A stretch of 64,000 bases of DNA. Origin: Amycolatopsis sp. 195334CR (GTDB lineage: Bacteria > Actinomycetota > Actinomycetes > Mycobacteriales > Pseudonocardiaceae). This document shows positions 18,213 to 37,753 of this stretch, one piece after another. Position 1 is the stretch's first letter. Each line of letters begins with the position of its first letter. The stretch lies in the NCBI RefSeq assembly GCF_017309385.1, contig NZ_JAFJMJ010000001.1, positions 3,968,001 through 4,032,000 of the forward strand, given 5' to 3'. Under the pieces are notes generated by a model, which saw nothing but the letters and a program-made list of their open reading frames with translations, was not told the origin of the DNA and did not search any database. The translations under genes were made by a program, and so were the position numbers.

Positions 18213-18733
18213 GACCGTCCGCCCTCGGTCGGTGTATTTCGTGGACAGCTCTGCCCAATTCTTGACTGGCCTGCAGCGCCCGATCGGGGCGGACTTTCTC
18301 AGAAAGCTTACCGAACGCTCAACATCGTGTGAAGGGGTTCGGCGGGTGATTAACGCGCTTGGTCAATTATTTACTTAGAAAATCCTTATAACCAACCGGT
18401 TACGGTCCAGCTGTCGGGATAGCCCCGCTCGCTGGTCGTGTCGCGCGCTAATGCGGTCGCGTTCCCGGCCTGATCGGGACGGGTTCCAGTACGGAAAATA
18501 ATCGAACGTGCACCGAGAATGACTCGGCCGTTCGGGGTAATCCGACTTAGTGCAGGATCATCAGTTCGCCGGACTGGCCCGGGTCGATGTGTGCCGAATT
18601 TCCGGCCAATGGGTCGGTTTCGCCGACTTTCCTACGAAAGTTGCTAGTTTGTTCAACGGTGCAACGAGGCGCTGCTGTCAGCAGGAGGAAAGCAGCACCG
18701 TTGTGCGGTGCCGAGCGATCCGGGGGGATGGCG
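18213..18733. promoter_or_regulatory. Divergent promoter region between the SARP and LAL genes
   Basis: There are 520 bases without a convincing gene between two divergent regulator genes. A marked AT-rich island spans about 18350-18400 in otherwise GC-rich DNA. Inside it, three 5-base boxes at 18363-18367, 18374-18378 and 18385-18389 are spaced exactly 11 bases apart. Read on the minus strand they are ATAAG, CTAAG and ATTGA, like the boxes before other cluster genes. The palindrome AACCGGTT at 18394-18401 follows. The part from about 18560 to 18733 is the leader of the LAL gene and could encode an N-terminal extension of that protein, which I consider unlikely. Confidence 0.6.
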
Positions 18734-21508
18734 ATGGAACTGGTGGAACGAGAGGAGCAGCTGCGCGTACTCGGGCTGCTGCTCAACGAAACACTGGTCA
18801 GGAAAGGTCAGGTCGCGCTACTCGACGGCCCGGCCGCGAGCGGGAAAACGGAACTGCTGCGGGTGTTCGCCGAACGCGCGCAGAAATCGGGTGTGCTATT
18901 CCTGAGCGCGTTGTGCTCGCGGTCCGAGCGGGCGCTGCCGTTCGGCGTGATCAGCCAGCTGGTGCACAGCGCGGTGCTGCCGGCGGAGCTGCACGGGCGG
19001 CTGGTGCGCCTGCTCGACGAGGGCGTGGCGGAGGCGCTCGCCGCCCGGTCCCGGCCGGAGCCGCCGGAACTGGGGCAGGTGTTCCACGGCATTTCGCTGG
19101 CGCTGCTGGAACTCGCCGCGCTCGACCCGCTGCTGATCGGGGTGGACGACCTGCGGCACGTGGACACCCTGTCGCTGCAGTGCCTGCTGTACCTGATCCG
19201 GCGCCTGCGCTCGGCCAGGGTGCTGGCGGTGCTGACCGACGACACCGATCCGGTGCCGTCGCAGCGCCCGTTCGGCGCGGAACTGCTGCGCCAGCCGCAC
19301 TTCCAGCGGATCAGGGTGGGCCCGCTGTCGGAAGCGGGGGTGGCGCGGCTGCTGGCGCGGCGCGCCGACCTGCCCGCCGGACTGGCGCCGGAGTTCCACG
19401 CCGCCACCGGCGGCAACCCGCTGCTGCTGGCCTCGCTGGCCGAGGACCACCGCGAGCTGGGCACCGCCCGGCCGGAGGGCTACGGCCTGGCCGTGCTGAG
19501 CTGCTTGCACCGCGGCGACCCGGTCCGGACGCGGGTGGCCCGCGCGGTGGCCGTGCTCGGCGGGGACGGTTCCCCGGAAACGCTGGCCGCGCTGGCCGGC
19601 GCCGAACCGGACGTGGTGCGGCAGAGCTGCGCCGCGCTGACCGCGGCCGGGCTGCTCGACACCGGCGCCTTCCGGCACCCGGTCGGCAGGCAGGCGGTGC
19701 TCGACGACCTCGCCCCGGACGACCGGATCGAGCTGCACCGGCGGGCCGCGCGCCTGCTGCAGGAGGTGGGCGCGTCCGCGATGACGGTGGCCGGTCACCT
19801 GATCGAGGCCGGCGACGTCCAGCCGCCGTGGGCGGTCACCGTGTTGCTGGAGGCGGCCGAACAGGCGCTGCTGTCCGACCGGATGGAGCTGGCCGCCGAC
19901 TCGCTGCGGCTGGCCCACCGCGCCAGCCTCGGGGAGGAGGACCGGGCGGCCATCCGGGCCCGGCTGGCCTACGCCGAATGGCAGGTGAACCCGGCCGCAG
20001 CGGCCGAGCACCTCGCCCCGCTCGCCGCGGCCATGCGCGCCGACCAGCTCAACCGGCGCGATTGCATAGTGCTGATCCGGCAGCTGCTCTGGCACGGCCG
20101 CGCCGACGAGGCGATGGACCTGCTCGACCGCCTGCGTTCCTCGGTGCGCGAGCAGCACACCGAGGCCGCGGCCGAACTGCGGCACACGGAGCTGTGGCTG
20201 ACCAGCGTGCACCCGCCGCTGGCCAGCCGTCGCCCGCCCGCGCACCCGGCCGGGCCGCAGCCCGCGCTGGTCACCCCGAAGGCCGATCCCGGCCTGCAGT
20301 CCACCGCGATGCTGGCCGACGTGCTCGCGCGCGGGCGCAGCCACGAGGCGGTCGACCGGGCCGAAGCGGTGCTGCGTGACATCGACCTGAACCGCAGCAC
20401 CTCGTGGGCCGAGGAGTCGGCCATGCTCGCGCTGCTGGTGCTGATCACCGCCGGCCGGGCGAAGAACGCGGCCGACTGGTGCGATCGGCTGCTCAGCGCG
20501 GCCGAACAGCGGCGGGCCCCGGTGTGGCGGGCGATGTTCGCCAGCGCCCGCGCCACCATCGCGGTGCGCCAGGGCGAACTGGCCGCGGCCGCCGAACACG
20601 CCGAACTCGCGCTGACCCAGATGGCCCGCAAGTCGTGGGGCGTCGCGATCGGACTGCCGCTGGGCAGCCTGATCCTGGCGAAGACCCGGATGGGCCGGTT
20701 CGAGGAGGCCGCGCAGCTGGTCACCTACACCGTGCCGGACGCGATGTTCCAGAGCCGGTACGGGCTGCCGTACCTGTACGCCCGCGGGAACTACTACCTG
20801 GCCACCAACCACCACCACGCCGCGCTGGCGGATTTCCTGTCCTGCGGGGAACTCATGCAGGGCTGGCGGCTGGAGGTGGCCGGACTGGTGCCGTGGCGCA
20901 CCTCGGCCGCGGAAGCGTGGCTGCGACTGGGCAATCTGGAGCAGGCGCGGTTGCTCGTGCACGACCAGCTGGCCCAACCGGGCACCGACGGCTTCCGCAC
21001 GCGCGGGGCGTCCCTGCGCCTGCTCGCGGCGTTGAGCCCGTCACCGCGGCGCCTGCCGTTGCTCACCGAAGCACTGGAACTGTTCGAATCGGCCGGTGAC
21101 TGCTACGAACAGGCGCGCGTGCTGGTCGATTTGAGCCGCGTCCACTACGAAGCCGACGACAAGCGGCGGGCGCGGAAGGTGTTCCGGCGGGCGTGGCACC
21201 TGGCGAAGGTGTGCGACGCGCAACCGCTGTGCGCGGAGCTGCTGTCCTCCAGCAGCGATCTGTCCACAGGGGCCGGTGCCGGTGAGGACACCGCGGGCAT
21301 CACCTCGCTGACCAGTTCGGAACGCCGGGTCGCGGCACTGGCGGTGATCGGGTACACGAACCGGGAGATCGCCGGCAAGTTGCACATCACCGCGAGCACG
21401 GTGGAACAGCACCTGACCCGGGTGTACCGCAAGCTCAACGTGAAACGCCGCAACGACCTGCCGCTGGACCTGCGTGCCGAGCCGGCACCACGGATTCGCC
21501 TGGCATAA
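18734..21508 (+). CDS. LAL-family (large LuxR) transcriptional regulator
   Basis: A 924-residue LAL regulator. It opens with ELVEREEQL, the usual N-terminus of the family. Walker A is DGPAASGKTELL near residue 30 and Walker B is LLIGVDDL near 135. A long helical TPR-like middle follows. The C-terminus is a LuxR helix-turn-helix (LTSSERRVAALAVIGYTNRE, then HITASTVEQHLTRVYRKLNV). The second ATG of an ATG-N3-ATG pair was chosen because the GGGGGG ribosome site is 7 bases before it and too close to the first. Such proteins activate polyketide clusters (family knowledge). It is divergent from the large SARP; the two probably form the left regulatory border of the cluster. Confidence 0.85.
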   Translation: MELVEREEQLRVLGLLLNETLVRKGQVALLDGPAASGKTELLRVFAERAQKSGVLFLSALCSRSERALPFGVISQLVHSAVLPAELHGRLVRLLDEGVAEALAARSRPEPPELGQVFHGISLALLELAALDPLLIGVDDLRHVDTLSLQCLLYLIRRLRSARVLAVLTDDTDPVPSQRPFGAELLRQPHFQRIRVGPLSEAGVARLLARRADLPAGLAPEFHAATGGNPLLLASLAEDHRELGTARPEGYGLAVLSCLHRGDPVRTRVARAVAVLGGDGSPETLAALAGAEPDVVRQSCAALTAAGLLDTGAFRHPVGRQAVLDDLAPDDRIELHRRAARLLQEVGASAMTVAGHLIEAGDVQPPWAVTVLLEAAEQALLSDRMELAADSLRLAHRASLGEEDRAAIRARLAYAEWQVNPAAAAEHLAPLAAAMRADQLNRRDCIVLIRQLLWHGRADEAMDLLDRLRSSVREQHTEAAAELRHTELWLTSVHPPLASRRPPAHPAGPQPALVTPKADPGLQSTAMLADVLARGRSHEAVDRAEAVLRDIDLNRSTSWAEESAMLALLVLITAGRAKNAADWCDRLLSAAEQRRAPVWRAMFASARATIAVRQGELAAAAEHAELALTQMARKSWGVAIGLPLGSLILAKTRMGRFEEAAQLVTYTVPDAMFQSRYGLPYLYARGNYYLATNHHHAALADFLSCGELMQGWRLEVAGLVPWRTSAAEAWLRLGNLEQARLLVHDQLAQPGTDGFRTRGASLRLLAALSPSPRRLPLLTEALELFESAGDCYEQARVLVDLSRVHYEADDKRRARKVFRRAWHLAKVCDAQPLCAELLSSSSDLSTGAGAGEDTAGITSLTSSERRVAALAVIGYTNREIAGKLHITASTVEQHLTRVYRKLNVKRRNDLPLDLRAEPAPRIRLA

Positions 21509-21540
21509 CAGGGGTTATGGCTCGTCGGGCGGTTGAGAAA

Positions 21541-21576
21541 GCCCCCGGCGCTCGAGGGGGAGGTGGCGCCGGGGGC
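21541..21576. terminator. Bidirectional terminator between LAL and P450 genes
   Basis: Eleven-base perfect arms (21541-21551 with 21566-21576) enclose a 14-base loop, between two convergent genes. The outer flanks TTGAG and CTCAA extend the pairing across a 3-base bulge. The rest of 21577-21691 holds nothing I can identify. Confidence 0.75.
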
Positions 21577-21691
21577 TCAAGGTCGGCCGAGGGGGGTGGC
21601 CGACTTCGTCAGCGTACCGCGTGGTCTGGCTCCGTGGGGGGCGAAGGCCGGAATTCTCGATTCTCACTCACAAGTTCACCCGATGCGCGCC

Positions 21692-23713: not shown

Positions 23714-23934
23714 GCCGCCACCAGCGAGTACACGTCTTCGAGGCTGCCCGCTTCGAGCAGGTCCGGCAGGGAAACCGGCTTGCCGGTGCGCTTCTCCACC
23801 ACGGTCAGCAGCCACAGCAGGTACACCGAGTCCCAGCCGGGCAGCTCGTCCAGGCTGCGTGCGGCGTCGGAGGTGGTGACCGGCAGGCCAAGCTCGTCAC
23901 GCACCAGCGTGACCAGATCGTCCACTGTGTTCAC
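23710..23934 (-). CDS. Stand-alone acyl carrier protein for the glyceryl unit
   Basis: A 74-residue ACP. The phosphopantetheine site is GWDS with Ser36; the Trp in place of the usual Gly-x-Asp-Ser context is typical of dedicated carriers of FkbH-type systems rather than of PKS modules. It starts at a GTG overlapping the FkbH stop by 4 bases and ends in an ATGA overlap with the acyltransferase. Its role by family is to carry the D-3-phosphoglycerate-derived glyceryl thioester made by the FkbH protein and deliver it to the KASIII-like enzyme. Confidence 0.85.
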   Translation of the reverse strand: MNTVDDLVTLVRDELGLPVTTSDAARSLDELPGWDSVYLLWLLTVVEKRTGKPVSLPDLLEAGSLEDVYSLVAA

Positions 23935-25769
23935 TGGAGTGCTCCTGGGAAGTCGAGGTCGACGTGGGCGGGGACTTCGGTGATCTCGCCGAGGTCGTGC
24001 CGGAAGCGGGTGACCCCGCCGGACTCGGGCAGCGGGGTGAACCCGTAGCGGGGGTAGAAGTCGGCGACCTTGCCGTTCTTCGCGGTGGGCCGGTAGCTGC
24101 CGAACACCTCGGTGATGCCGTGTTCGCGGGCGTGGTGCAGCAGTGCCGACAGGCACGCCTGCTCGATGCCGCGGGAGAACACCCGGCAGCTCAGGATGAA
24201 GTTCTCCAGGTGGAGTGCCCGCGCTTCGCGCCGGGCGAAGACCACCCCGACCAGACCGTTCTCCCCGAACCGGTCGCTCGACCGGATGGCGAGCACCAGC
24301 CGATCGGGGTCCTCCGCCAGTTCCCGGACCTCCGGCAGCTGCAATCGCCGGGTGGTCAGGTTGAACTGGTTGGTGCGCAGGGAGAGCTGGGAAACGCGCG
24401 GGAACTCGGCCTCGGTCGCCGGGGCGAACCGCACCCGGATGCCGAGTTCGGCCAGGTACCGCTCGATTGAGTCGAAGCTGTCCAGGAAGTCCTTTCTGGA
24501 CAGCTCCGCGCGGTACTTGTCCACCCTGGCGCGGTCCTCTGTGGTCAGTTCGCGCACGTCGAACCAGCCGTCGGCGAGCAGGGTGCCCACGTGCAGCGCC
24601 GGGTCCCCGGTCACCGGCAGCACCGCCACCGACGGCAGTTCGTCGCGGACCAGGCCGCATTCCAGCGTGTTGTCGTCGACGAAGGCGAACGAGTCCACGC
24701 CGAGGTTGAGGTCGGCGGCCAGCTGCCGGAGGTTGTCGTGCTTGGGCTGCCAGTTCGCGATGATCCGGACGAAGTCGTCCTCCGCCAGCGTCATCAGCGG
24801 GTTCTCGGTGAGCGCGCGCCGCACCGGGTCGAGGTCGTTCTTGCTCACCACGGCGAGCAACACGCCCTGTGACCCGATCTGCTTCACCACCCGCTGGAAC
24901 GCGCGGAACGCCTCGCCGTGGTGACTTTCCGCGACCTCGATGCCGTCGTGACCGTCTTCACCGAGGATGCCGCCCCACACCGTGCCGTCGAGGTCGAGCA
25001 CCAGGCACTTCTTCGTGCGCCCGGCGGTGTTCCTGGCCAGGTGCCCGATCTCGCGGGCGTAGCGGGCGAGCAGTTCCGCCGACAGGTGCATCTTCGCGTA
25101 GACGGCCAGCCTCGGGTCTTCGACCGGGATGCCTTCGGCCAGCAGCGGTTCGAGGTCGACCACCAGCACGCCCGGGTGCTGCTCGCCGAAGCGCAGCAGG
25201 CGCGCGTTGGCCTCGCGCCACAGCGCGCCGAGTTCCGCGCGGGAGCGGTGGTCGACCAGTTGCGCGGTGAACCGGTGGGGCAGCGGCAGCGTGTTCAGCA
25301 CCAGCGTGCCCTTGCTGTTCGCCTCGAAGATCGACGCCAGTTTGTCCAGAATGGACAGCTTCTCGTCGAGCGCCGCGCGCACGTCGGCCGGTCGCCACGG
25401 CACCGGCACCTCGGCGAAGACCGCCTCGGCGTCGAGCACGCAGAGGGTGAGCTCGGCCTCGGCGCGGTGGATGGCACTGTCCGGATCGGACAGTTCGGTG
25501 AGGTAACCGCCGAAGTCGCCGACCGTCGGGCGCAGCAGCAGCCCGTGCCGGGCGACCTCGGCGGTCAGCGACGGGACCAGTGGCGACAGCGTGCCGTTGC
25601 CGGTGATCGCCACCCGCACCACGGTCGCCTCGTTCTCGTCGACGTCCAACTGGGCGAGCAGCCGTCCGGCACGCGTGAGTTCCGCGGGCGCGAGGTCGGA
25701 CAGCAGCGCGGGCACGCGGTGGTAGGCCCCGGCGAGCTGCCCCTCGCGGTAGGCGGTGAAGAAGTCCAT
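23931..25769 (-). CDS. FkbH-like glyceryl-S-ACP synthase (HAD superfamily)
   Basis: A 612-residue enzyme. An N-terminal SGNH-hydrolase-like part covers residues 1-240. A HAD phosphatase domain follows, with motif I VLDLDGTVWGG (nucleophile Asp259, Asp261), and then a GNAT-like C-terminal domain (about 440-600). This long three-part form is one of the two known FkbH sizes. The family loads the glyceryl group of 1,3-bisphosphoglycerate on an ACP and removes the phosphate, giving the three-carbon unit of tetronates. It is overlapped by one base with the KASIII stop and by four with the ACP start, so the genes are strictly coupled. Confidence 0.9.
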   Translation of the reverse strand: MDFFTAYREGQLAGAYHRVPALLSDLAPAELTRAGRLLAQLDVDENEATVVRVAITGNGTLSPLVPSLTAEVARHGLLLRPTVGDFGGYLTELSDPDSAIHRAEAELTLCVLDAEAVFAEVPVPWRPADVRAALDEKLSILDKLASIFEANSKGTLVLNTLPLPHRFTAQLVDHRSRAELGALWREANARLLRFGEQHPGVLVVDLEPLLAEGIPVEDPRLAVYAKMHLSAELLARYAREIGHLARNTAGRTKKCLVLDLDGTVWGGILGEDGHDGIEVAESHHGEAFRAFQRVVKQIGSQGVLLAVVSKNDLDPVRRALTENPLMTLAEDDFVRIIANWQPKHDNLRQLAADLNLGVDSFAFVDDNTLECGLVRDELPSVAVLPVTGDPALHVGTLLADGWFDVRELTTEDRARVDKYRAELSRKDFLDSFDSIERYLAELGIRVRFAPATEAEFPRVSQLSLRTNQFNLTTRRLQLPEVRELAEDPDRLVLAIRSSDRFGENGLVGVVFARREARALHLENFILSCRVFSRGIEQACLSALLHHAREHGITEVFGSYRPTAKNGKVADFYPRYGFTPLPESGGVTRFRHDLGEITEVPAHVDLDFPGALQ

Positions 25770-26800
25770 CAGATCTTCTCCACCGCGAAGCCGGACTTGA
25801 TCCACTTGCTGGACTCGATCGCGATCCCGGCCACCCGGTCGCCCTGCGACAGCCACGGCAGCACCTTCTCCAGCTGCACGAACGGCATCGCGTTGCCGAC
25901 GTTGCCGGTCTCGGCCACACAGCTGACCTCGTGCGCGTCCGGCACACCGAGCCGGTCGACGATGGTCTCGGTCATCTTCCCGGACAGCTGCGGTGGCAGC
26001 AGGTAGTCGAGATCGCCACCGGACCAGTCCAGTTCGCCGAGCACCTCCTCCAGCGCCTCGGCGGCCAGGCCGGGCACCGACTCCTCGATGGCCTTGTAGT
26101 CCTCCAGCACCGGCGCCCGGTCGTCGTCCCGGTCGGCCACGCCGAACCACTCGACCACCTGCCCCGGCGGGCGGCCGAGGCCGACCAGCCGGACGAACAC
26201 GTGCCGCAGTTCCACCGCCTCCGGCCCCGGCTCGGTGCTCAGCACGGCCGCGCCCGCGCCATCACCGAAAAGGATGAAGTTCACCTGCTGCGCCGGGGTC
26301 AGCGCGGCGAAGTCGGTGTCGAAGTCGAGGTGCTTCACGCAGACGTCGCCGCCGAGCACGAGCGCGGTGCGGTGGCGCCCGGTGGAGAGCAGCTGCCGGG
26401 TCAGGTCGAGCGCCTGCACCGCGCCGGTGCAGCCGGATTGGAGCTGGTAGGTGGGCACCTGGTCGATGCCGAGCCGGTCGGCGATCAGGTTCACCGTGGC
26501 CGGCATCAGCTGGTCGGGGGTGGCGCTGCCCATCACCACCAGGTCGATGTCGCCGGGGGCCAGCCCGGCCCCGGTCAGCGCCCGCCGCCCGGCTTCCTCA
26601 CCGAGGTCGGCCAGCGTCGCGTGCGGTTTGCCGGTCTCCGGATCGACCGCGAGGTGGCGGGTCCGGGTGCCGATGAAGGTGTCCACCCACTGCTGCCACG
26701 CGCCGGTGGTGCCGAAGCGGGCGGCCAGCGCCGCGTTGTCCACCAGCGGCCCGGGAAAGGCCGTGCCCGCGGCCAGGACGTACGTTTGACGGGCGCCCAT
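25769..26800 (-). CDS. KASIII-like tetronate-forming ketosynthase (AbyA1-like)
   Basis: A 343-residue thiolase-fold protein of the FabH type. Nucleophile Cys124 sits in QSGCTGA. The FabH His-Gln-Ala-Asn region reads LPPQLSG (267-274), so the usual His is not where FabH has it; the Asn loop GNVGN (299-303) remains. In tetronate pathways this enzyme joins the glyceryl-ACP with the beta-ketoacyl chain and releases it as a tetronic acid, replacing a thioesterase. It is the first gene of the operon KASIII-FkbH-ACP-E2-P450 and has a GGGAGG ribosome site. A triple-box element lies 47-72 bases upstream. Confidence 0.87.
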   Translation of the reverse strand: MGARQTYVLAAGTAFPGPLVDNAALAARFGTTGAWQQWVDTFIGTRTRHLAVDPETGKPHATLADLGEEAGRRALTGAGLAPGDIDLVVMGSATPDQLMPATVNLIADRLGIDQVPTYQLQSGCTGAVQALDLTRQLLSTGRHRTALVLGGDVCVKHLDFDTDFAALTPAQQVNFILFGDGAGAAVLSTEPGPEAVELRHVFVRLVGLGRPPGQVVEWFGVADRDDDRAPVLEDYKAIEESVPGLAAEALEEVLGELDWSGGDLDYLLPPQLSGKMTETIVDRLGVPDAHEVSCVAETGNVGNAMPFVQLEKVLPWLSQGDRVAGIAIESSKWIKSGFAVEKI

Positions 26801-26846
26801 CGAGTTTCCTCCCTGCCGAGAATTCGCCCCATGCTCGATCGGTGGA

Positions 26847-26872
26847 CTAAACCGTTTCTTTCCCCGTACTTA
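26847..26872 (-). promoter_or_regulatory. Triple-box element before the tetronate operon
   Basis: Read on the minus strand, TAAG (26869-26872), AAAG (26858-26861) and TTAG (26847-26850) are spaced exactly 11 bases apart. The element is 47-72 bases before the KASIII start, the usual distance for an activator site overlapping the -35 region. Similar elements are before the tandem barrel protein, DUF5988 and efflux genes. Confidence 0.6.
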
Positions 26873-26915
26873 CGTCCGCCGGACTCAGGAACGTCTAATC
26901 GAGCTGTGCGATCGT

Positions 26916-26955: not shown

Positions 26956-27621
26956 ATGCGGGTTCTGGTGGTCGAGGACGACGTCCGCCTCGCCGAGGTG
27001 CTGTCGTCGGGACTCACGGCCGAAGGCTTCGACGTGGACGTGGTCCACGACGGGTTCGACGGTTACTGGCAGGCCCGTGAAGGCGCGCACGACGTGGTCG
27101 TGCTGGACGTGCTGCTGCCCTCGATCAGCGGTTACACGGTGGCCAAGCGCCTGCGGGCCGAAGAGGTGTGGACGCCGGTGCTGATGCTCACCGCGAAGGA
27201 CGGCGAATACGACGAGGCCGACGGGCTCGACGTCGGTGCCGATGACTACCTCCGCAAGCCGTTCTCGTTCGTGGTGCTGGTGGCCCGCCTGCGGGCGCTG
27301 GCCCGTCGCGGGGCGACGCCGCGGCCCCGGCTGCTCAGCCACGGTGGTCTCTCGCTCGACCCCGAGTCCGGGGAGTGCATGGTCAACGGCAAGCAGCTGA
27401 CCCTGCAACCGCGCGAGCGCGCGCTGCTGGAGGCGCTGCTGCGCAACCGCAACCGGGTGATGTCGAAGGACCGCCTGCTCAACGCGGTCTGGGGGCTGGA
27501 CTCGGCCGGGGACACGAACCTGGTCGAGGTGTACGTGTCGTACCTGCGCCGCAAGATCGGCGCGGCCCGCATCGAGACGATCCGCAGCCTCGGGTACCGC
27601 TTGGTGGACCCGGATGCCTAG
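26956..27621 (+). CDS. OmpR-family response regulator
   Basis: A 221-residue response regulator. The receiver domain has the acidic pair EDD at 7-9, the phospho-acceptor Asp51 (VVLDVLLP) and the Thr/Lys switch residues (LTAKDG and LRKPF). The C-terminal winged helix (ESGECMVNGKQLTLQPRE, then VEVYVSYLRRKIG) is of the OmpR type. The ATG start with GGGCGGG upstream is preferred over upstream in-frame starts. It is co-transcribed with the sensor kinase (8-base overlap) and divergent from the tetronate operon. The adjacent efflux operons are its most likely targets. Confidence 0.9.
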   Translation: MRVLVVEDDVRLAEVLSSGLTAEGFDVDVVHDGFDGYWQAREGAHDVVVLDVLLPSISGYTVAKRLRAEEVWTPVLMLTAKDGEYDEADGLDVGADDYLRKPFSFVVLVARLRALARRGATPRPRLLSHGGLSLDPESGECMVNGKQLTLQPRERALLEALLRNRNRVMSKDRLLNAVWGLDSAGDTNLVEVYVSYLRRKIGAARIETIRSLGYRLVDPDA

Positions 27622-28957
27622 GGTGCGGCCGCGTTCCCTGCGGTTGCGGTTGACCCTGGTGGTCACCCTGGCGGTCGGCCTCGCGCTGACCGTCGCCTCG
27701 TTCGTGCTGGTCAACAGCATGTCGAACACGTTGTTCGGCGGAATGGCGGAAAGCGCGGCGGCGCAGGTCGACAAGGTGGCCGAAGCGGTGGAGCGCGGGC
27801 AACCGCTGCCCCCGGAGGACCCGGCGTCGGCGACCATGATCCTGGTCGAGGACCAGGCCGGGAAGGTGGTCGCGTCGGTGCCGCAGACCGGTCAGCAGGC
27901 GGTCGAAGGCAGGCCGGTGCCGGTCGAACGGGCGCGCGCGACCGGTGCCGCCGAGGGCCGTCCGCCCGCCGAGGACTTCGAGATCGTGCCGGCGCGGCAG
28001 GTCTCCACCCCGCAGGGCGAGGTCCGCACGGTGCGGGCGATCTCGCGGTCGGGGCAGATCACCCAGAGCATCGACCTGGTGGTGAACTCGCTGCTGGTGG
28101 CCGCGCCGGTGCTGACGATCTTCGTCGGCTGGCTGACCTGGTTCGCGGTGGACCGCGCGCTGCGCCCGATCGAGGCGGTCCGGCGGCGCGCCGAGGCAAT
28201 CAGTCACTCCACTTTGGACGAACGACTGCCCGAGCAGGACACCGGTGACGAGGTCGGGAAGCTGACCAGCACGCTGAACCGGATGCTCGACCGCATCGCC
28301 TCGGGCGCGCGTCGGCAGCGGGAGTTCGTCTCGGACGCTTCGCACGAACTGCGCACGCCGCTGGCCGCGATGCGGGCGGAGCTGGAAGTTTCGCTGGCGC
28401 ACCGGGACAGCGCCGACTGGCGGAACGTGGCGACGAGGTTGTTGGACGACCACCGTCGACTGGAACGCCTGACCGGCGACCTGCTGACGCTGGCGCGGCT
28501 CGACGAGGCCGCGGTCTCCCGGCGGGCGGAACCCGTGCACCTGGACGAGATCGTGGCGGGCGAGATCACCGCGGTGCGGCACGCGGAGGTGCGCCCGTCG
28601 CTGACCCCGGTGGTGGTGACCGGCGTGGTCCCCGAACTGGTGCGGTTGGTGCGGAACCTGCTGGACAACGCGGACAAGCACGCTTCGGGCGTGGTCGAGG
28701 TGTCGCTGTCGGTGGACGCCCGGCACGCCCTCTTCACCGTCGACGACGACGGCCCGGGTGTGCCGCCGGATCAGCGGGAACGCGTCTTCGACCGCTTCTT
28801 CCGCGTCGACGGCAGCCGGGACCGGGCCAGCGGGGGCGTGGGTCTCGGGCTGGCGCTGGTACGCCGCATCGCCCGGAGCCATGGGGGCGAGGTCACCGTC
28901 ACGGCTTCGCCTTCGCTGGGTGGCGCCCGTTTCGAAGTGCGCCTACCTCGCAACTAA
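27614..28957 (+). CDS. Sensor histidine kinase
   Basis: A 447-residue membrane kinase. Transmembrane segment 1 (about 10-34) is followed by an extracytoplasmic sensor of about 120 residues, transmembrane segment 2 (about 156-178) and a HAMP region. The HisKA motif DASHELRTPL has phospho-acceptor His244. The ATPase boxes NLLDNADKHA, DDDGPGVP and GVGLGLALVRRI are intact. It forms a pair with the overlapping response regulator. The sensor domain is acidic and has no recognised fold. It probably senses an envelope condition or an antibiotic and controls the efflux genes that follow. Confidence 0.9.
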   Translation: MPRVRPRSLRLRLTLVVTLAVGLALTVASFVLVNSMSNTLFGGMAESAAAQVDKVAEAVERGQPLPPEDPASATMILVEDQAGKVVASVPQTGQQAVEGRPVPVERARATGAAEGRPPAEDFEIVPARQVSTPQGEVRTVRAISRSGQITQSIDLVVNSLLVAAPVLTIFVGWLTWFAVDRALRPIEAVRRRAEAISHSTLDERLPEQDTGDEVGKLTSTLNRMLDRIASGARRQREFVSDASHELRTPLAAMRAELEVSLAHRDSADWRNVATRLLDDHRRLERLTGDLLTLARLDEAAVSRRAEPVHLDEIVAGEITAVRHAEVRPSLTPVVVTGVVPELVRLVRNLLDNADKHASGVVEVSLSVDARHALFTVDDDGPGVPPDQRERVFDRFFRVDGSRDRASGGVGLGLALVRRIARSHGGEVTVTASPSLGGARFEVRLPRN

Positions 28958-28984
28958 ACCCCGGCTCCACGAGCCCGTGGCACC

Positions 28985-29037
28985 GCTGTGAATGTGGCTT
29001 TCACTGCCAAATCCGCAGTGAAAGCCACATTCACAGC
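28985..29037. terminator. Long perfect hairpin after the kinase gene
   Basis: Twenty-three-base perfectly paired arms (28985-29007 and 29015-29037) flank a 7-base loop. It terminates the two-component operon and separates it from the efflux operon. The AT-richer stem is unlike the flanking DNA, which suggests a family of dispersed palindromes. Confidence 0.85.
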
Positions 29038-29095
29038 AGCCCTTCGTGGCTAGCACCCCCTTCTCTCGTCGTCAATCCGACGATTCAGCTTCTCC

Positions 29096-29120
29096 TCAGC
29101 GCGGCTAAGTCCCGTCCAAG
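29096..29120 (+). promoter_or_regulatory. Triple-box element before the first efflux cassette
   Basis: TCAG (29096-29099), TAAG (29106-29109) and CAAG (29117-29120) are spaced 10 and 11 bases, followed after nine bases by CACAGT as a possible -10 hexamer. The same layout and wording (CCAAGG, GCTCGGCACAGT) recur before the second cassette at 32604. Confidence 0.6.
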
Positions 29121-29172
29121 GCCCGCTCGGCACAGTGAGGCGGACAACGAGAGAAGAGAAGGGGGTACGGCG

Positions 29173-29619: not shown

Positions 29620-29630
29620 GGACTACAGCC

Positions 29631-30689: not shown

Positions 30690-31369
30690 CCAGGCCCGTA
30701 CTGGAGATCACCGACGCGGTCCGCGAATACCCCGGGGTGCCGCCGGTCCGCGCGCTCAACGGCGTCAACCTGACCGTCATGCCGGGTGAGTGGGTGGCGA
30801 TCGTCGGCCCGTCCGGCTCCGGCAAGTCGACCCTGCTGAACCTGATGGGCGCACTGGACAAGCCGACCTCGGGTTCGGTCAGGATCGACGGCCACGAGGT
30901 CGGCAAGCTCAACGACGAGAAGCTTTCCGCGCTGCGTGGTCGTTCGCTCGGTTTTGTCTTCCAGTCCTTCCACCTGCTCCAGAGCCTGAGCGCGCTGGAC
31001 AACGTGGGCACCGCGCTGATGTACCGCGGCATCCCGGCCGCCGAACGCCGTCAGCGCGCGGAATCGGCGCTGACCAGGGTCGGGCTCGGGCACCGGCTCG
31101 GGCACCGCCCGGCGCAGCTCTCCGGTGGCGAGAGCCAGCGCGTGGCGATCGCGCGGGCGCTGGTCGGCGATCCGGCGCTGGTGCTGGCCGACGAGCCCAC
31201 CGGCAACCTGGATTCCCGCAACGGCGAGGAGATCATGCGCCTGTTCGGGGAACTGCACCACGACGGCGCGACCCTGGTGCTGATCACGCACGACGACGAG
31301 ATCGCGCGTGCCGCCCCGCGCCGGGTGCACATCCGCGACGGCCAGATAGTCCAGGGGGCACTGGTATGA
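30686..31369 (+). CDS. MacB/LolD-type ABC transporter ATPase
   Basis: A 227-residue ATPase. Walker A is GPSGSGKST (about 44-52), the signature is LSGGESQR (about 146-153) and Walker B is VLADEPTGNLD with the catalytic Glu. It is fully intact and of the family that energises MacB-type mechanotransmission pumps. It overlaps the adaptor gene before and the permease after (ATGA). Confidence 0.93.
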   Translation: MTRPVLEITDAVREYPGVPPVRALNGVNLTVMPGEWVAIVGPSGSGKSTLLNLMGALDKPTSGSVRIDGHEVGKLNDEKLSALRGRSLGFVFQSFHLLQSLSALDNVGTALMYRGIPAAERRQRAESALTRVGLGHRLGHRPAQLSGGESQRVAIARALVGDPALVLADEPTGNLDSRNGEEIMRLFGELHHDGATLVLITHDDEIARAAPRRVHIRDGQIVQGALV

Positions 31370-32586
31370 CGATCACCGAGGAGAAACCACCGCGGCTGGA
31401 GAAGTCCGTGCTGCGCTTCCGCGACGCGATCGCGCTGGGCAAGCTGGGCGTGCTCGGCCGCCGCGGCCGCGCGATGCTGACCGCGGTGGGCATTTCGATC
31501 GGCATCGCCGCGATCGTCGCGGTGGTCGGCATTTCGGCCTCCTCGCAGGCGAACCTGTTGCAGGTGCTGGACGATCTCGGCACCAACTACCTGACCGTCA
31601 AGCCCGGCCAGTCGTTCAGCAGCGACGAGGAAGCGCAGCTGCCACCCGAAGCGGGCGGCCGTCTGTCCATTCTGGACCAGGTGCAGGCGGTGGCCACCGT
31701 GGCGCAGCTGGACGTCACCGTGCGGCGCACCGACCAGATGCCCGCCACGGACACCCGAGGCGTCGTGGTGCTGGCCGCCGAGGCCGACCTACTGTCCACA
31801 TTGAACGGAAAGCTGGCGTCGGGTCGTTGGCTCGACGCGGGACTTTCCGGTTACCCGACCGTCGTGCTCGGCACCACCGCCGCGCAACGCCACGGCGTGG
31901 ACATCAGCGAGGGCGGGCAGCTGGTCTGGCTCGGTGAGCAGTGGTTCGCCGTGGTCGGCATCCTGCAGCCGATGCCGCTGGCACCGGAACTGGACAGCTC
32001 GGCGCTCATCGGCACCGACATCGCGGCGCAGAAGTTCGGTTACCAGGGCTCGCCGACCACGGTGTACGTGCGGGCCAACCCGGACGACATCAACGCGGTC
32101 CGCGACGTGGCGGGCGCGACGGCGAACCCGGAGAGCCCGCAGGAGGTGGAGGTGACCCGGCCGTCGGACGCGCTGGAGGCGCGGGCCGCCGCGGACACCG
32201 CGTTCACCACGCTGCTGCTCGGCCTCGGCGGGGTGGCGCTGCTCGTCGGCGGGGTCGGCATCGCGAACGTCATGGTCATCTCCGTGCTGGAACGGCGGAA
32301 CGAGATCGGCGTGCGGCGCGCGCTGGGCGCCACCCGGCGGCACGTGCGCTCCCAGTTCCTCGTCGAGGCGCTGGTGCAGGCCGGGCTCGGCGGGTTCGCC
32401 GGGGTCCTGCTCGGCGCGGGCGTGACGATCGTCTACGCGCTGGTGATGGGGTGGCCGATCGTGCTGCCCGTGGTCGGCCTGGCCGGCGGTGTGCTGGCCG
32501 CGCTGCTGGTCGGCGGCCTGGCCGGGCTGTACCCGGCGAGCCGGGCGGCCCGGCTCGAACCGGCGGAAGCGGTCCGGCCCGCCTGA
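31366..32586 (+). CDS. MacB-type ABC transporter permease
   Basis: A 406-residue permease. One N-terminal transmembrane helix (about 38-58) is followed by a large extracytoplasmic MacB_PCD domain (about 65-270) and three C-terminal helices (from about 280) with the FtsX motif ERRNEIGVRRALGATRRHV. The four-gene unit lipoprotein, adaptor, ATPase, permease would form a pump for a hydrophobic or amphipathic compound. The genomic place beside the cluster makes the cluster product or an envelope signal a plausible substrate (inference). Confidence 0.9.
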   Translation: MTITEEKPPRLEKSVLRFRDAIALGKLGVLGRRGRAMLTAVGISIGIAAIVAVVGISASSQANLLQVLDDLGTNYLTVKPGQSFSSDEEAQLPPEAGGRLSILDQVQAVATVAQLDVTVRRTDQMPATDTRGVVVLAAEADLLSTLNGKLASGRWLDAGLSGYPTVVLGTTAAQRHGVDISEGGQLVWLGEQWFAVVGILQPMPLAPELDSSALIGTDIAAQKFGYQGSPTTVYVRANPDDINAVRDVAGATANPESPQEVEVTRPSDALEARAAADTAFTTLLLGLGGVALLVGGVGIANVMVISVLERRNEIGVRRALGATRRHVRSQFLVEALVQAGLGGFAGVLLGAGVTIVYALVMGWPIVLPVVGLAGGVLAALLVGGLAGLYPASRAARLEPAEAVRPA

Positions 32587-32603: not shown

Positions 32604-32628
32604 CAAGGCGCGTTAAGCCCGGTCCAAG
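32604..32628 (+). promoter_or_regulatory. Triple-box element before the second efflux cassette
   Basis: CAAG (32604-32607), TAAG (32614-32617) and CAAG (32625-32628) are spaced 10 and 11 bases; TCCAAGGCGCG occurs twice, 21 bases apart. CACAGT nine bases after the last box repeats the arrangement seen at 29096. Confidence 0.65.
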
Positions 32629-32683
32629 GCGCGATCGGCACAGTTCTTCACGAAACCCAGAAGTCCCATGGAGGTGGACGGCC

Positions 32684-33169
32684 ATGTCGAAGCGGTTGAT
32701 CAAGGGCGGCGTGCCGGTGCTGGCCCTGCTGTTCGCGTTGACCGCCTGTGGCGGGAACGAACCGGCCCAGCCGGCGCAGGACAACAAGACGCAGGACAGC
32801 CTGCTGCAGTACGCCCAGTGCATGCGGGACAACGGCGTGCAGCTGGCCGACCCGCAGCCGGGCAGCCCCGGCGCGATGTACGAGGGGGTGGACAAGGACT
32901 CCGCGGCCTTCGTCGCGGCGAACAAGACCTGCGGGCACTTCCTCGACGGGGTGGTGCAGGACCGCCAGAGCCAGGACACCGGCGACCAGGCGCAGCAGGA
33001 CGAGGAGATGCTCGCGCTGGCGAAGTGCCTGCGGGACAAGGGCATCAACGTGCCGGACCCGGTGCCGGGCTCGGACACCCCGTTCGGCGACAAGCTGGAC
33101 CGGACCGATCCGGCCACGTCCAAGGCGCTCAAGGAGTGCCAGCAGTCGGCCGCGCCCTCGCAGGGGTGA
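32684..33169 (+). CDS. Lipoprotein of the second efflux cassette
   Basis: A 161-residue paralogue of the lipoprotein at 29173. The lipobox is LTAC after a hydrophobic stretch. The shared segments QYAQCMRDNGVQLADP and LAKCLRDKGINVPDPVPG show clear duplication of the cassette. The start ATG is chosen for the complete signal peptide; the frame extends upstream into the intergenic element and is not used. It is 4 bases before the GTG start of the second adaptor protein. Confidence 0.78.
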   Translation: MSKRLIKGGVPVLALLFALTACGGNEPAQPAQDNKTQDSLLQYAQCMRDNGVQLADPQPGSPGAMYEGVDKDSAAFVAANKTCGHFLDGVVQDRQSQDTGDQAQQDEEMLALAKCLRDKGINVPDPVPGSDTPFGDKLDRTDPATSKALKECQQSAAPSQG

Positions 33170-33173
33170 GGTC

Positions 33174-34220
33174 GTGAAGCCGAAGGTCGCGGTGCCGGTG
33201 GCGCTGGGTTTGGTCGCCGTCGCCGGCGCCGCGGTCTGGTACGTGGCGGACAGCGGTGCCGAACCGGCCCCCCTCGCCGGTTCGGCACCGACCGCCGATG
33301 TGGCGGTCCGCGACCTGACCCGCACGGAGAAGCTGAGCGGCGTGGTCGCCTACCAGGACATGCGCGACCTCTCCTCGGCGCAGAGCGGCATCATCACCGA
33401 ACTTCCCACTCCCGGCACCGACCTGGTCAACGGGGACGTGCTGATGCGGATCAACGACAAACCCGTGGTCCTGCTGAACGGGGTGGTGCCCGCGTGGCGC
33501 GACCTGAAGACAGGCATCACCGACGGGCCCGACGTGCACCAGCTGGAGTCCGCGTTGCTGGCGCTGGGCTTCGGCAAGCCGAGCGCGACCTATCCCGACG
33601 ACGACTGGAGCCAGAAGACCACCGACGCGGTCCAGCAGCTCCAGAAGAAGATCGGCGCCGAGGACGACGGTGTGCTCTCGCTCGGCGAAGTCGTGTTCAC
33701 CGAGGGGAACGTGCACATCGCCAAGCTCAACGCGCACGAGGGCGGGATGACCTCGCCGTCGGCGCCGGTGCTCACCGTGCAGAGCACGGACCGGGTGGTC
33801 AGCGTCGACCTCGACCCGCTGGACCGCGACCTGATCGAGGTCGGCAAGGCGGTCGAGGTCGAACTGCCCAGCGGTGACAAGGCGGCGGGCAAGATCGAGT
33901 CGGTCAGCACCACGCTGGAGTCGAACGCCGACGGCAAGGGCGTTTTCCAGGTCACCATCTCGCTCGACGCGCCGGACCAGGTGAGCGGGCTGGCGCTGGC
34001 GCCGGTGACCGTGCACTACGTGGCGACCGTGGCGCAGCAGGCCCTGACCGTGCCGGTGTCCTCGGTGATCGGGTTGCCGGGTGGCGGGAACGCGGTGGTG
34101 GTGATCGCGCCGGACGGCACCACGAAGCAGGTGCCGGTGAAGCTCGGCGAGTGGGGCGACGGTTTTGTGCAGGTCACCGGGGATCTCCCGGTGGGGACGA
34201 AGGTCGAGGTTCCGCTCTGA
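33174..34220 (+). CDS. Second membrane-fusion protein with peptidoglycan-binding domain
   Basis: A 348-residue paralogue of the adaptor at 29631 with the same layout: N-terminal anchor (5-22), VLMRINDKPVVLLNG, peptidoglycan-binding-like segment (DGPDVHQLESALLALGFG), then the beta-barrel. GTG start. No ABC ATPase or permease follows, so it may share the transporter of the first cassette or provide an alternative adaptor for it. It ends at a convergent terminator. Confidence 0.82.
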   Translation: MKPKVAVPVALGLVAVAGAAVWYVADSGAEPAPLAGSAPTADVAVRDLTRTEKLSGVVAYQDMRDLSSAQSGIITELPTPGTDLVNGDVLMRINDKPVVLLNGVVPAWRDLKTGITDGPDVHQLESALLALGFGKPSATYPDDDWSQKTTDAVQQLQKKIGAEDDGVLSLGEVVFTEGNVHIAKLNAHEGGMTSPSAPVLTVQSTDRVVSVDLDPLDRDLIEVGKAVEVELPSGDKAAGKIESVSTTLESNADGKGVFQVTISLDAPDQVSGLALAPVTVHYVATVAQQALTVPVSSVIGLPGGGNAVVVIAPDGTTKQVPVKLGEWGDGFVQVTGDLPVGTKVEVPL

Positions 34221-34296: not shown

Positions 34297-34297
34297 A

Positions 34298-35431
34298 TCA
34301 GCCGGCGGTGGGCGGGTCCCACTCCCAGTGCTCGACGAGGTCGTTGCACATGAAGACCTGGCCGTCGAGATCGGCCTGGCCGGTCACCTTGAACAGGCGG
34401 CTGCCGACCATTCCGGCGTAGCGCCCGCTGACGCCGTCGGCCCACATCGCGTGCCATTCGTAGACGTTGTTCAGCGTCAGGTTGTAGACGCCGGAAGTGC
34501 GGATCGTGCCGTCGCGGAAGGTGATCGTCTGCTGCACGAACTTCAGCCCGATGTCGTTCGCCGGGTCCTTGAAGGGCGTGTACGAATAGCCCTTCGAAAT
34601 GGCGACGAGCCTGCCGTCCTTGCGGAACTCGGATTTGTAGTGCATCGAGGAACCGGCTCCCGGTGGCCACTCACCGCCGTCGCCCGGCGCGGGTCCGTAC
34701 TCCTCGGTCAGTTCCTCGCGCAGGCCGACGTGCACCTCGCAGTCGTTCGGGGGGACCGGGCTGTCGGCGGGGTCCTTGGGTGGCTCGGCCGCCTCGAGCG
34801 CGGCCAGCGCGTTGGACTGCTTCTCCGCCAGCGTTTCCTCGGCCTTGGGCTTCTTCGGGTTCCAGTCCCAGTTCTCTTCGAGGCCGCCGCACAGGTACAG
34901 CCCGGCGTTCAGGCTCAGGCCGAGCTGGGTGATCTGGAAGGTGCGGGCGCCGATCATGCCCACGTAGCGGCCGCTGACGCCTTCCGCCGAGATGTAGTTC
35001 CACTCGTTGTAGTTGTTGGGGGTGACGCTGTAGACCCCGGAGGTGCGGATGACCCCGTCGGTGAGTTCGATGGTTTCCTGCGCGTACTGAAGGATCACGT
35101 CCTCTTTGTCGTCGCGGTAGGGGACGTAGGAGTAGCCCTTCGAGGTGGCCACCCAGTTGCCTGCCTGGTCGCGCAGCTCGGCCTTGAAGTAGACCTGGTG
35201 GCCCACCTGCAGCCTGCTGCCGACCGGGGGATTGCTCGGGTCGGGGAAGATCGGGTACTTCTCCACGATCAGTTCGCTGAGGTTGTTGTGGTTGACGCAG
35301 TCGTGCGGCACCCCGGTGGACTCGGCGGCGCCCGCTGTCGCCGGAACCACCAGCGAGACCAGGAAGAACGCGCTCGCGACCAGTGTGATCCGGCTTCTCC
35401 GCCGGCGCGCTTTCTTGCGGAAAATGTGCAT
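34298..35431 (-). CDS. Secreted tandem allene-oxide-cyclase-barrel-like protein; candidate spirotetronate cyclase
   Basis: A 377-residue protein with a basic N-terminus and a Sec signal peptide (cleavage near Ala35-Ala36). The mature part is an internal duplication: residues about 44-190 and 230-373 share SKGYSY-x-P, DG-x-IRTSGVY, an EW pair, GVSGRY-x-GM-x-G and a final C-x2-L-x-E-x-W-x-W, with a charged Ala/Glu/Pro linker between. The DG-x-I-x-T-x-G and G-x-S/T-G-x-Y-x-G-x-x-G pattern resembles the allene-oxide-cyclase barrel, the fold of the spirotetronate [4+2] cyclases AbyU, PyrI4 and VstJ (family knowledge; assignment is inference). Each half has two Cys, so one disulfide per barrel is possible. 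If cyclase, the signal peptide implies action outside the membrane. Otherwise it is a secreted AOC-like protein of unknown role. Confidence 0.62.
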   Translation of the reverse strand: MHIFRKKARRRRSRITLVASAFFLVSLVVPATAGAAESTGVPHDCVNHNNLSELIVEKYPIFPDPSNPPVGSRLQVGHQVYFKAELRDQAGNWVATSKGYSYVPYRDDKEDVILQYAQETIELTDGVIRTSGVYSVTPNNYNEWNYISAEGVSGRYVGMIGARTFQITQLGLSLNAGLYLCGGLEENWDWNPKKPKAEETLAEKQSNALAALEAAEPPKDPADSPVPPNDCEVHVGLREELTEEYGPAPGDGGEWPPGAGSSMHYKSEFRKDGRLVAISKGYSYTPFKDPANDIGLKFVQQTITFRDGTIRTSGVYNLTLNNVYEWHAMWADGVSGRYAGMVGSRLFKVTGQADLDGQVFMCNDLVEHWEWDPPTAG

Positions 35432-35468
35432 GGTTCTCCTTTCGGCGGGTCGAGGCTAGGAGCGGGCG

Positions 35469-35495
35469 CTAAACCGTGCCTTAGGTCCGTCCATA
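35469..35495 (-). promoter_or_regulatory. Box element before the tandem barrel gene
   Basis: On the minus strand, TAAG (35480-35483) and TTAG (35469-35472) are 11 bases apart. A third, weaker box TATG is at 35492-35495. TAGCCT ten bases after the last box is a possible -10. The distance to the start codon is 38 bases. Confidence 0.55.
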
Positions 35496-35560
35496 GGGGA
35501 GTAACAGGGGGCTTGGGGGCTCCCGGCAAGGCTGGCATGGTCTAGCGAGTGTTCGAACCG

Positions 35561-35687
35561 GTTTGCGTGGCGGTGCGGGTGGCGGAACCTCAGGCGTCTT
35601 CTCGCTCCGGGAGCTCCACCTCATGAATGCCGATTCACCACGGTGAAGCTGTCCTCGCGAGAAGCCGCCTGAGAACCCGCAGCGGTG
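35561..35687. repeat. 127-base repeat element, copy 1
   Basis: Almost identical to 38698-38825, with one 1-base indel and few substitutions. It contains 17-base inverted arms (35589-35605 and 35657-35673, one mismatch). It lies in the divergent region between the tandem barrel gene and the quinoprotein gene. The rest of that region, 35688-35777, contains two further short hairpins (35706-35723 and 35748-35761) in the quinoprotein leader. Confidence 0.9.
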
Positions 35688-35777
35688 CGAGCTGGCGGCC
35701 CACAGCAAGCGGCTCCGCCGCTTGGAAAACACGACCTAGCGAGCCCGCACGCGTTCGCGTGGGAGAAGAGGGAGACC

Positions 35778-37397: not shown

Positions 37398-37406
37398 CGT
37401 GAAAAA

Positions 37407-37432
37407 GGCGGTGAGCGCCGTTGCTCACCGCC
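37407..37432. terminator. Terminator between quinoprotein and DUF5988 genes
   Basis: Ten-base perfect arms (37407-37416 and 37423-37432) with a 6-base loop lie between convergent genes. An A5 run precedes the stem, which serves as a U-tract for the minus-strand transcript. Confidence 0.85.
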
Positions 37433-37449
37433 TCACCCCCCGACGCCGG

Positions 37450-37668
37450 CTATTCGGCGACGTAGGTCCGCCCGGTCCATTCGAAGACCCGCAGCCTGCG
37501 ACCCGCGTGCAGTTCGGTCTCCGCGGTCGGCCGGAAATGTTCGTAACGATTCCCGTTCGCCAGCTTCAGCGGGTGTTCCTCGTCGTGCACGCGGTGGAAG
37601 CGCGGGTTTCCACCAGGTAACGCGAGCGGGCCGCCCCGCAGCACCACGTTGGGCCCGATATCACTCAT
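37450..37668 (-). CDS. DUF5988-family small protein
   Basis: A 72-residue protein with the family's typical parts: NVVLRGGP near the N-terminus, GNRYEHFRPT in the middle, and VFEWTGRTYVAE at the end. The family is found in or near actinomycete natural-product clusters; its function is unknown. The ATG at 37668 is preferred because the family begins there; an upstream in-frame start would add 15 unrelated residues. A triple-box element lies 60-85 bases upstream, as before the tetronate operon, supporting co-regulation with the cluster. Confidence 0.75.
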   Translation of the reverse strand: MSDIGPNVVLRGGPLALPGGNPRFHRVHDEEHPLKLANGNRYEHFRPTAETELHAGRRLRVFEWTGRTYVAE

Positions 37669-37727
37669 GGCACCGTCCTTTCCCCGGATGGTTTCGCTGG
37701 GTGACCAGGCCATCGTCCGGAGGCGGG

Positions 37728-37753
37728 CTAAAGCGGTGCTTTCGGCCTGCTTG
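37728..37753 (-). promoter_or_regulatory. Triple-box element before DUF5988
   Basis: On the minus strand, CAAG (37750-37753), AAAG (37739-37742) and TTAG (37728-37731) are spaced exactly 11 bases, as before KASIII. It may also serve the divergent SARP gene. Confidence 0.6.

Follow-up and report, generated by a model that had tools for sequence, protein, structure and literature searches.

The 64,000-nt stretch of Amycolatopsis sp. 195334CR DNA analysed here (the window) has recurring four-base boxes ahead of tetronate biosynthetic genes and ahead of efflux genes, which raises the question of which protein reads them and whether synthesis and export are switched together. The first-pass annotation had described shared triple-box operators before six promoters and proposed one or two regulons tying tetronate genes, a candidate cyclase, DUF5988 and export together. 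Our results favour two regulons, and very probably there are two separate switches with the same geometry, in which a short SARP would act on the biosynthetic set and a response regulator on the efflux set.

On the minus strand, the SARP-type operator/promoter of the KASIII-FkbH tetronate genes (26831..26875) has the boxes TAAG (26869-26872), AAAG (26858-26861) and TTAG (26847-26850) followed by a predicted -10 GAGCAT (26831-26836), and that of DUF5988 (37712..37756) has CAAG (37750-37753), AAAG (37739-37742) and TTAG (37728-37731) followed by a predicted -10 GACGAT (37712-37717). On the plus strand, the probable response-regulator operator/promoters of lipoprotein 1 (29096..29136) and lipoprotein 2 (32604..32644) read TCAG-TAAG-CAAG (29096-29120) and CAAG-TAAG-CAAG (32604-32628), each with a predicted -10 CACAGT (29131-29136 and 32639-32644). 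The words claimed for the triples at 26847-26872, 37728-37753, 29096-29120 and 32604-32628 were thus confirmed, as were the periods of 11/11 at KASIII and DUF5988 and 10/11 in the efflux pair. The triple claimed for the tandem barrel gene (35469-35495, minus strand) stood only as a two-box operator/promoter (35453..35483), with TAAG (35480-35483) and TTAG (35469-35472) in register, spaced N7, and a predicted -10 TAGCCT (35453-35458); TATG lies 12 nt away, out of register, is pushed further off by extra bases in the related genome G547 and was rejected as a third box. Nor is the third box a fixed part of the operator, being in register in 8 of 28 non-redundant relatives.

The KASIII, barrel and DUF5988 sites share the form HWAG-N7-TTAG-N10-(-10). 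The spacing of direct repeats in SARP operators is 11 or 22 bp, and 11 bp was found at these three sites and at a fourth SARP-type site beyond the window, before the hydrolase-PKS genes (window-frame 69277-69320, minus strand), where the proximal box is TTGG and the seed pattern (see below) is not satisfied. For a -10 expected about 8 bp from the 3' repeat, TTTAG is followed here at 10 nt by a predicted hexamer of the form.A...T. A -10-like hexamer lies exactly 10 nt past the last box at all five accepted window sites; this constant gap and the 69277 site had not been described in the first-pass annotation.

The boxes occur far beyond chance. Six window matches were found for [ACT]AAG-N7-[CT][AT]AG, in all six claimed places (mean 0.67 and maximum 3 in 30 order-3 Markov sequences), and HHAG triples were in modest excess (4; mean 1.03 and maximum 3 in the same null). 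Of 26 matches to WAAG-N7-YWAG-N15-T in the 9.93-Mb genome (71% GC; reversed pattern 223), five are five of the six claimed promoters, within 11 kb. HWAG-N7-TTAG-N15-T had 14 matches genome-wide, 3 in this cluster region (reversed 115), and YAAG-N7-YAAG-N15-T had 18, 2 in this cluster region (reversed 60). These genome patterns were derived from the sites themselves, and the comparisons with foreign organisms and with G547 weigh more. Where G547 could be aligned locally, 74/75 positions in boxes and -10 hexamers were identical, compared with 50/70 in spacers (p = 1.4e-6), and the KASIII boxes and -10, the two-box barrel site, the three DUF5988 boxes and both lipoprotein sites (29096, 32604) were kept.

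A SARP matrix was made from 24 non-redundant KASIII promoters of other actinobacteria and is not fully independent, since the seed pattern for gathering the foreign sites was taken from the window. Over 163 kb, both strands, its ranks 1 to 4 were the DUF5988 (34.2), KASIII (25.6), 69277 (22.8) and barrel (21.2) sites, whereas the efflux pair scored -7.3 (29096) and -2.3 (32604), though both satisfy the seed pattern by inspection. The consensus of the biosynthetic boxes is TTTAG/WAG, the proximal box commonly being GCTTTAG. Of 80 KASIII loci, 33 had a strict site no more than 300 bp upstream, where the remaining sequence of the loci predicts 0.7 of 80, and a site scoring above 15 was present in 65 of the 80 homologous loci (32 of 47 once the 33 matrix-source loci are excluded); the other 15, in loci spanning at most 10 kb each side, had none above 15. 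Among 60 further sites, 55 were close to the start of a gene on the same strand, compared with 18% at random. The matrix picked up 2 sites in shuffled loci totalling 3.09 Mb of strand; in other loci (396 kb of strand) a single site exceeded 15 and none exceeded 20.

Operator presence appeared tied to SARP identity (33/52 vs 0/28 loci, p = 5e-9), but this association was rejected as confounded because 18 of the 28 "negative" loci with distant SARPs have sites before other genes, so that operator presence cannot separate close from distant SARPs. Co-occurrence of SARP and operator likewise proves little, because each of the 78 genomes searched has at least one SARP at E<=1e-40, and many have several. 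A general link between DUF5988 and the operator was also rejected: DUF5988 turned up in 7 of 396 genomes, the window's own among them, and none of the 9 matches in other genomes was preceded by a site above 15.

The sixth place, before the large SARP (18363-18389, minus strand), has the claimed words TAAG, TAAG and TTGA, all kept in G547, but was accepted into neither operator set and was rejected as a SARP operator: TTGA does not belong to the box type, a T-ending hexamer is missing at 10 nt, and the matrix scores are -20.5/-20.9. A loose HHAG pair with 10/11 spacing occurred in 73% of shuffles of 18213-18586, a figure that does not extend to the exact TAAG-TAAG pair. Some other element is possible at this place, given that its words are conserved in G547.

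The biosynthetic operators precede genes for a KASIII-like tetronate enzyme (25769..26800, minus strand, ACP_syn_III), a tandem allene-oxide-cyclase-like barrel that is a candidate cyclase (34298..35431, minus strand, two stretches of PF18678 AOC_like) and the DUF5988 protein (37450..37668, minus strand, PF19450). The likely candidate activator at these three promoters is the short SARP (37915..38682, plus strand, 255 aa, TTG start), a cluster-encoded protein with an OmpR-type winged helix (Trans_reg_C) and a BTAD domain and with AfsR and EmbR relatives in the PDB. It has the helix core VY[IVL]SQ[LV]R[KR], which is shared by 57 of the 70 distinct SARP segments in the fetched loci and absent from 13, and its recognition helix differs from that of the large SARP (15735..18212, minus strand, 825 aa, BTAD and AAA_16), which reads ILHNAIADLRG. 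The position equivalent to AfsR R92 is Q in the short SARP and, by manual reading, Y in the window response regulator.

The efflux genes all lie on the plus strand: the OmpR-type response regulator (26956..27621, Response_reg and Trans_reg_C), a sensor histidine kinase (27614..28957; HAMP, HisKA, HATPase_c), lipoprotein 1 (29173-29619, lipobox-like start, without Pfam match), a membrane-fusion protein (29640-30689), an ABC ATPase (30686-31369), a MacB/FtsX permease (31366-32586) and a duplicated pair of lipoprotein 2 and membrane-fusion protein (32684..34220). A receiver and winged-helix regulator and its kinase thus adjoin the efflux operon, an order kept in L198 and L199, where relatives of the regulator (81% and 76%) stand by the same gene set. 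In these two orthologous systems, the only close ones available, TAAG/CAAG-N7-TAAG-N10-hexamer precedes the lipoprotein, and there were no KASIII, FkbH or short-SARP hits within 5-6 kb on either side. The repeats before the target are kept with the regulator in L028 and L029, where the layout is similar to that at lipoprotein 1, and in G547, the close independent systems numbering two. HAAG-N7-YAAG matched eight times across 29 homologue loci, 196 kb of strand in all, and each match lies at most 200 nt upstream of where the lipoprotein is extrapolated to start; the pair is absent from 21 of the 29 loci, and distant homologues have other helices. A relative of the window response regulator (E<=1e-6) was present in the fetched flanks of just 1 of 80 KASIII loci. 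When 397 genomes of the order were searched strictly for response-regulator orthologues (7 candidates per genome scored), the hits outside the window's own genome and G547 were 57-62% identical and were left unused, and a literature search brought up nothing specific on this efflux system. Because the efflux sites score negatively on the SARP matrix and similar sites occur in orthologous systems without KASIII or FkbH nearby, the response regulator is the likely candidate binder of both lipoprotein promoters.

From these observations we infer the binding proteins, the activation and the start sites of the following model. The short SARP would bind side by side on two, sometimes three, HWAG-N7-TTAG direct repeats spaced 11 bp apart, which would lie near -40 and -29 relative to the expected start and end 10 nt ahead of a weak -10. 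By analogy with AfsR, it would substitute for the missing -35 contact and recruit RNA polymerase at the KASIII genes, the tandem barrel, DUF5988 and the hydrolase-PKS genes, the last from the site beyond the window. The response regulator, switched by its kinase, would bind TCAG/CAAG-TAAG-CAAG in the same position before both lipoprotein/membrane-fusion sets and thereby turn the pump on. The earlier naming of these two proteins as candidates is likely right, each for its own set, as is the view of the boxes as one-turn direct repeats of the type read by OmpR-type winged helices; the tie between tetronate genes, barrel and DUF5988 is likely right too. The earlier word "shared" goes too far, the evidence favouring a separate regulon for export.

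A single regulon, with one of the two proteins on all sites and synthesis and export directly coupled, would fit the common xxAG box type, similar period and identical 10-nt distance to the -10, and AfsR and PhoP, a response regulator, reportedly recognise the same direct repeats at afsS (PMC10972967). It is nonetheless improbable, as the SARP matrix splits the two sets, the helix residues Q and Y differ, and the two types of site occur apart, efflux-type sites in response-regulator-lipoprotein systems away from KASIII and FkbH and SARP-type sites in KASIII loci that lack the response regulator. Activation of the biosynthetic set by the large SARP is also improbable. In its favour, this SARP lies in the cluster, and the distant SARPs of many KASIII loci resemble the two window SARPs to about the same degree; but its helix is without the core common to the short SARP and most of the segments, and ChlF2, which acts on chlM, is small, at 262 aa (PMC7471628). 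AT-rich words are expected to gather between genes at this GC content, which can account for the 18363 site and would agree with the modest excess of loose triples, but it is very improbable that the other boxes are chance words or ordinary sigma-factor promoter parts, given that the proximal box falls between the usual -35 and -10 positions and that the sites are rare in the genome (14 of the TTAG form), conserved above spacers in G547 and recurrent at foreign gene starts.

With two separate switches, the export pump would be set apart as independently controlled, and DUF5988 and the candidate cyclase would join the tetronate and PKS genes in a single proposed regulon of this cluster. The SARP matrix finds probably co-regulated promoters in tetronate-type clusters, and a concrete operator can be proposed for ChlF2-type SARPs, which is of relevance to waking silent clusters and to the timing of self-protection. 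More tentatively, and with the balance somewhat against it, one operator code could extend across tetronate-type clusters of distant actinobacterial genera, with VY(I/V)SQ(L/V)RK SARPs reading TTTAG repeats. If so, any such SARP could activate a silent tetronate cluster of foreign origin, and the helix would reveal the code. A hint comes from two Frankia-type genomes of one lineage, in which the best-matching SARPs, putatively the acting ones, have MVSNLRK (Q to N) and the KASIII sites have ACGTTAG, not GCTTTAG.

Among known systems, the AfsR box at afsS of Streptomyces coelicolor consists of two 11-bp direct repeats in a 22-bp box centred at -29.5, with the upstream repeat at -40 to -30, a suboptimal -10 and a poor -35, and the window boxes share this register if the hexamer is set at -12, a placement of our own (PMC10936776). 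The AfsR sequence CGTT(T/C)ATCGNN (PMC10972967) differs from HWAG/TTTAG, and an R in AfsR takes the place of the short SARP's Q. The PimR operator at the pimM promoter similarly has three heptamers with 4-nt spacers, an 11-bp period, but its consensus is CGGCAAG, its sole target is a regulator gene and it is clear of the -35 (PMC5930380). Here TTTAG boxes precede structural genes and a third box may be lacking, and a triple operator of PimR type, with three CGGCAAG heptamers, was therefore rejected. Chlorothricin ChlF2, which is small like the window's short SARP, comes from a spirotetronate cluster, where it activates the promoters of chlM and of five more sets of structural genes; chlF2 itself is driven by the chlK promoter, which was not a target (PMC7471628). 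The chlM/chlD homologue abyA1 is tabled as a ketoacyl-ACP synthase (PMC3625739). The passages on ChlF2 give no binding sequence, "direct repeat" and "consensus" having no occurrences in the main text (PMC7471628), and no published operator for ChlF2-type SARPs was found in the openly licensed literature searched.

The free-standing systems L198 and L199 (response regulator, kinase, lipoprotein, membrane-fusion protein, ABC transporter) resemble the window in gene order and in having similar repeats before the lipoprotein, and differ in that the window has a duplicated lipoprotein-membrane-fusion pair adjoining tetronate genes. The oxytetracycline cluster is of the type II polyketide kind. Its OtcR sites are 11-bp repeats before several cluster promoters, with the 3' repeat 8 bp from the -10 and one 9-nt repeat reading CGGTCGAAG (PMC4393881). 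The box sequence and the kind of antibiotic cluster are unlike those of the window, but in both cases repeats 11 bp apart precede several promoters of one cluster.

The window (C1:3968001-4032000 in a genome of 9.93 Mb in seven contigs) lies in a region that holds a tetronate-type polyketide cluster. On the minus strand are the KASIII gene (25769-26800), a gene within 23931-25829 whose product had no Pfam match and is putatively FkbH-like by resemblance, and a 2-oxoacid-dehydrogenase-type acyltransferase and a P450, both assigned by family search. Further genes encode a tandem AOC-like barrel (34298-35431), DUF5988 (37450-37668), a short SARP (from 37915), a large SARP (15735-18212) and a putative LuxR-type (LAL) regulator (18587; named without family search). 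A response regulator (26956), a kinase, two sets of lipoprotein and membrane-fusion genes and an ABC exporter are located between these genes. The lipoprotein and membrane-fusion pair is duplicated together with its promoter (29173-30689 and 32684-34220, 72-77% DNA identity in blocks), giving two adaptor sets for one exporter.

The first-pass annotation had proposed a shared operator of four-base boxes before six promoters. The predicted operators are probably real, judging from the sequence comparisons below, and would form two regulons, with one site (18363) dropped and one (69277-69320) added. Four of the six sites were as described when the sequence was re-read; at the barrel gene two of the three boxes were right and the third (TATG) was not. 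TATG is displaced in G547, a relative in the same genus. The plain pair [ACT]AAG-N7-[CT][AT]AG occurred six times in 64 kb, all at the six claimed places, as compared with 0.67 matches in Markov sequences. Restricting the first letter to W and adding a T 15 nt on gave 26 matches in the genome, five of them in the window. Given that the reversed pattern gave 223 matches, composition alone is no guide. When five sites were aligned on the last box, a hexamer (GAGCAT, TAGCCT, GACGAT, CACAGT and CACAGT) began exactly 10 nt after that box in each, which would be the expected place of a predicted -10 element.

The best 80 of 139 KASIII homologue loci, from named genomes, were examined for the same arrangement. 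HHAG-N7-YHAG was present within 250 bp upstream of KASIII in 36 loci and a strict form including the -10 within 300 bp in 33, the latter having 95 matches per 3.06 Mb strand elsewhere in the loci. The commonest form was HWAG-N5-GCTTTAG-N10-GANNAT; the seed specified nothing beyond the ends of the boxes and two letters of the -10, and GC-TTT and GANNAT came out of the sites themselves. A SARP matrix built from 24 non-redundant sites ranked, in 163 kb around the window, the DUF5988 site highest (34.2), followed by KASIII (25.6), a new site (22.8) and the barrel (21.2). The next was a palindrome far outside the cluster, GGTTAACGCGGGCTTAACC (122258-122304 when the window numbering is extended), with 16.6 and 13.5 on its two strands, and nothing else exceeded 8. 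The two efflux sites satisfied the seed, yet their scores were -7.3 and -2.3, which makes them a useful internal control.

The new site (C1:4037277-4037320, minus strand; 69277-69320 in extended numbering, outside the window) ends 6 nt upstream of the start codon of a hydrolase-like protein, with giant PKS genes next, and the predicted hydrolase-PKS transcript would be leaderless. The protein had no Pfam match in the family search and resembles the alpha/beta-hydrolase of tetronate clusters. Also outside the window, CAAG-N7-TAAG-N10-TACCTT (76272-76315, minus strand) has the common geometry immediately 5' of a GTG codon and a matrix score of only 6.2.

A site scoring above 15 was present in 65 of the 80 KASIII loci, including all 33 that supplied the matrix, and in 32 of the 47 outside the matrix set. 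Further sites were near a same-strand gene start in 55 of 60 cases (random places, 18%). Block-shuffled loci had 2 sites per 3.09 Mb strand and other loci 1 site per 396 kb strand. From these counts, many of the clusters carry the SARP-type element at more than one promoter. The cluster is also present in G547, where DNA identity is about 79-91% across the main collinear blocks, and in the locally aligned parts of the four SARP-type sites 74/75 box and -10 positions were identical as compared with 50/70 spacer positions; the distal box was retained at KASIII and DUF5988. G547 alignments break at both copies (35560-35687 and 38690-38825, 97%) of a palindromic MITE-like element of about 130 bp, which suggests a recent insertion; 12 near-full copies (95-100%) were among the 20 genome matches listed.

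The sixth site, claimed before the large SARP, was not borne out: it failed the matrix, lacked the -10 distance and lies in AT-rich DNA, where loose HHAG pairs arose in 73% of shuffles. G547 conserves the three words of this site as well as the DNA around them, so another element may lie there. Positions 18330-18400, an AT-rich stretch separating the genes of the large SARP and the LAL regulator, are strongly conserved in G547 and fit neither operator.

For the efflux set, the order response regulator-kinase-lipoprotein-membrane-fusion protein-permease was also found in two other genomes (response regulator 81% and 76%, permease 72% and 71%). In these two genomes, a search of 5-6 kb of flanking DNA on either side gave no hit to KASIII, FkbH or the short SARP. 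Their lipoprotein promoters carry TAAG or CAAG-N7-TAAG, with CAGAGT and AAGTGT 10 nt downstream. Among 29 lipoprotein homologue loci HAAG-N7-YAAG had eight matches across 196 kb of strand, some from close relatives, each no more than 200 nt upstream of where extrapolation places the lipoprotein start; the pair was not found in 21 of the 29. Both efflux sites are kept in G547 as islands of identity. Since the response regulator helix differs in distant systems, this reading rests on the two close systems and G547. A hairpin between the kinase and the first lipoprotein gene (28986-29036; GAATGTGGCTTTCACTGC / GCAGTGAAAGCCACATTC) is covered by a G547 alignment gap (28944-29067).

As to what binds the biosynthetic set, a relative of the window response regulator was found in the fetched flanks of one of 80 KASIII loci (L120, 40% identity). 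SARPs at E<=1e-40 were found in 78/78 genomes searched, and such co-occurrence proves little. An association between the operator before KASIII and SARP identity (33/52 vs 0/28 loci) was not used because 18 of the 28 carry the operator before other genes. The recognition helix is more telling than co-occurrence: the core VY[IVL]SQ[LV]R[KR] was present in 57 of 70 distinct SARP segments of the fetched loci, was kept in 17 of 19 segments below 47% identity, and is shared by the short SARP; the corresponding helix of the large SARP is ILHNAIADLRG.

The system is of a known kind, and no earlier description of this operator, or of how widely it occurs, was found in the literature searched. The AfsR box has the same register (cryo-EM study, PMC10936776), placing the window boxes at about -29 and -40 if the hexamer is the -10. 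AfsR has an arginine where the short SARP has Q, corresponding to R92 if the paper's numbering is matched by spacing, and R92 is described by the authors as contacting DNA (same paper). The small SARP ChlF2, which like OtcR (PMC4393881) proved insoluble, is reported to activate the chlM promoter (PMC7471628), and AbyI and AbmI are SARPs of abyssomicin clusters that are required for production (PMC3625739, PMC5819245).
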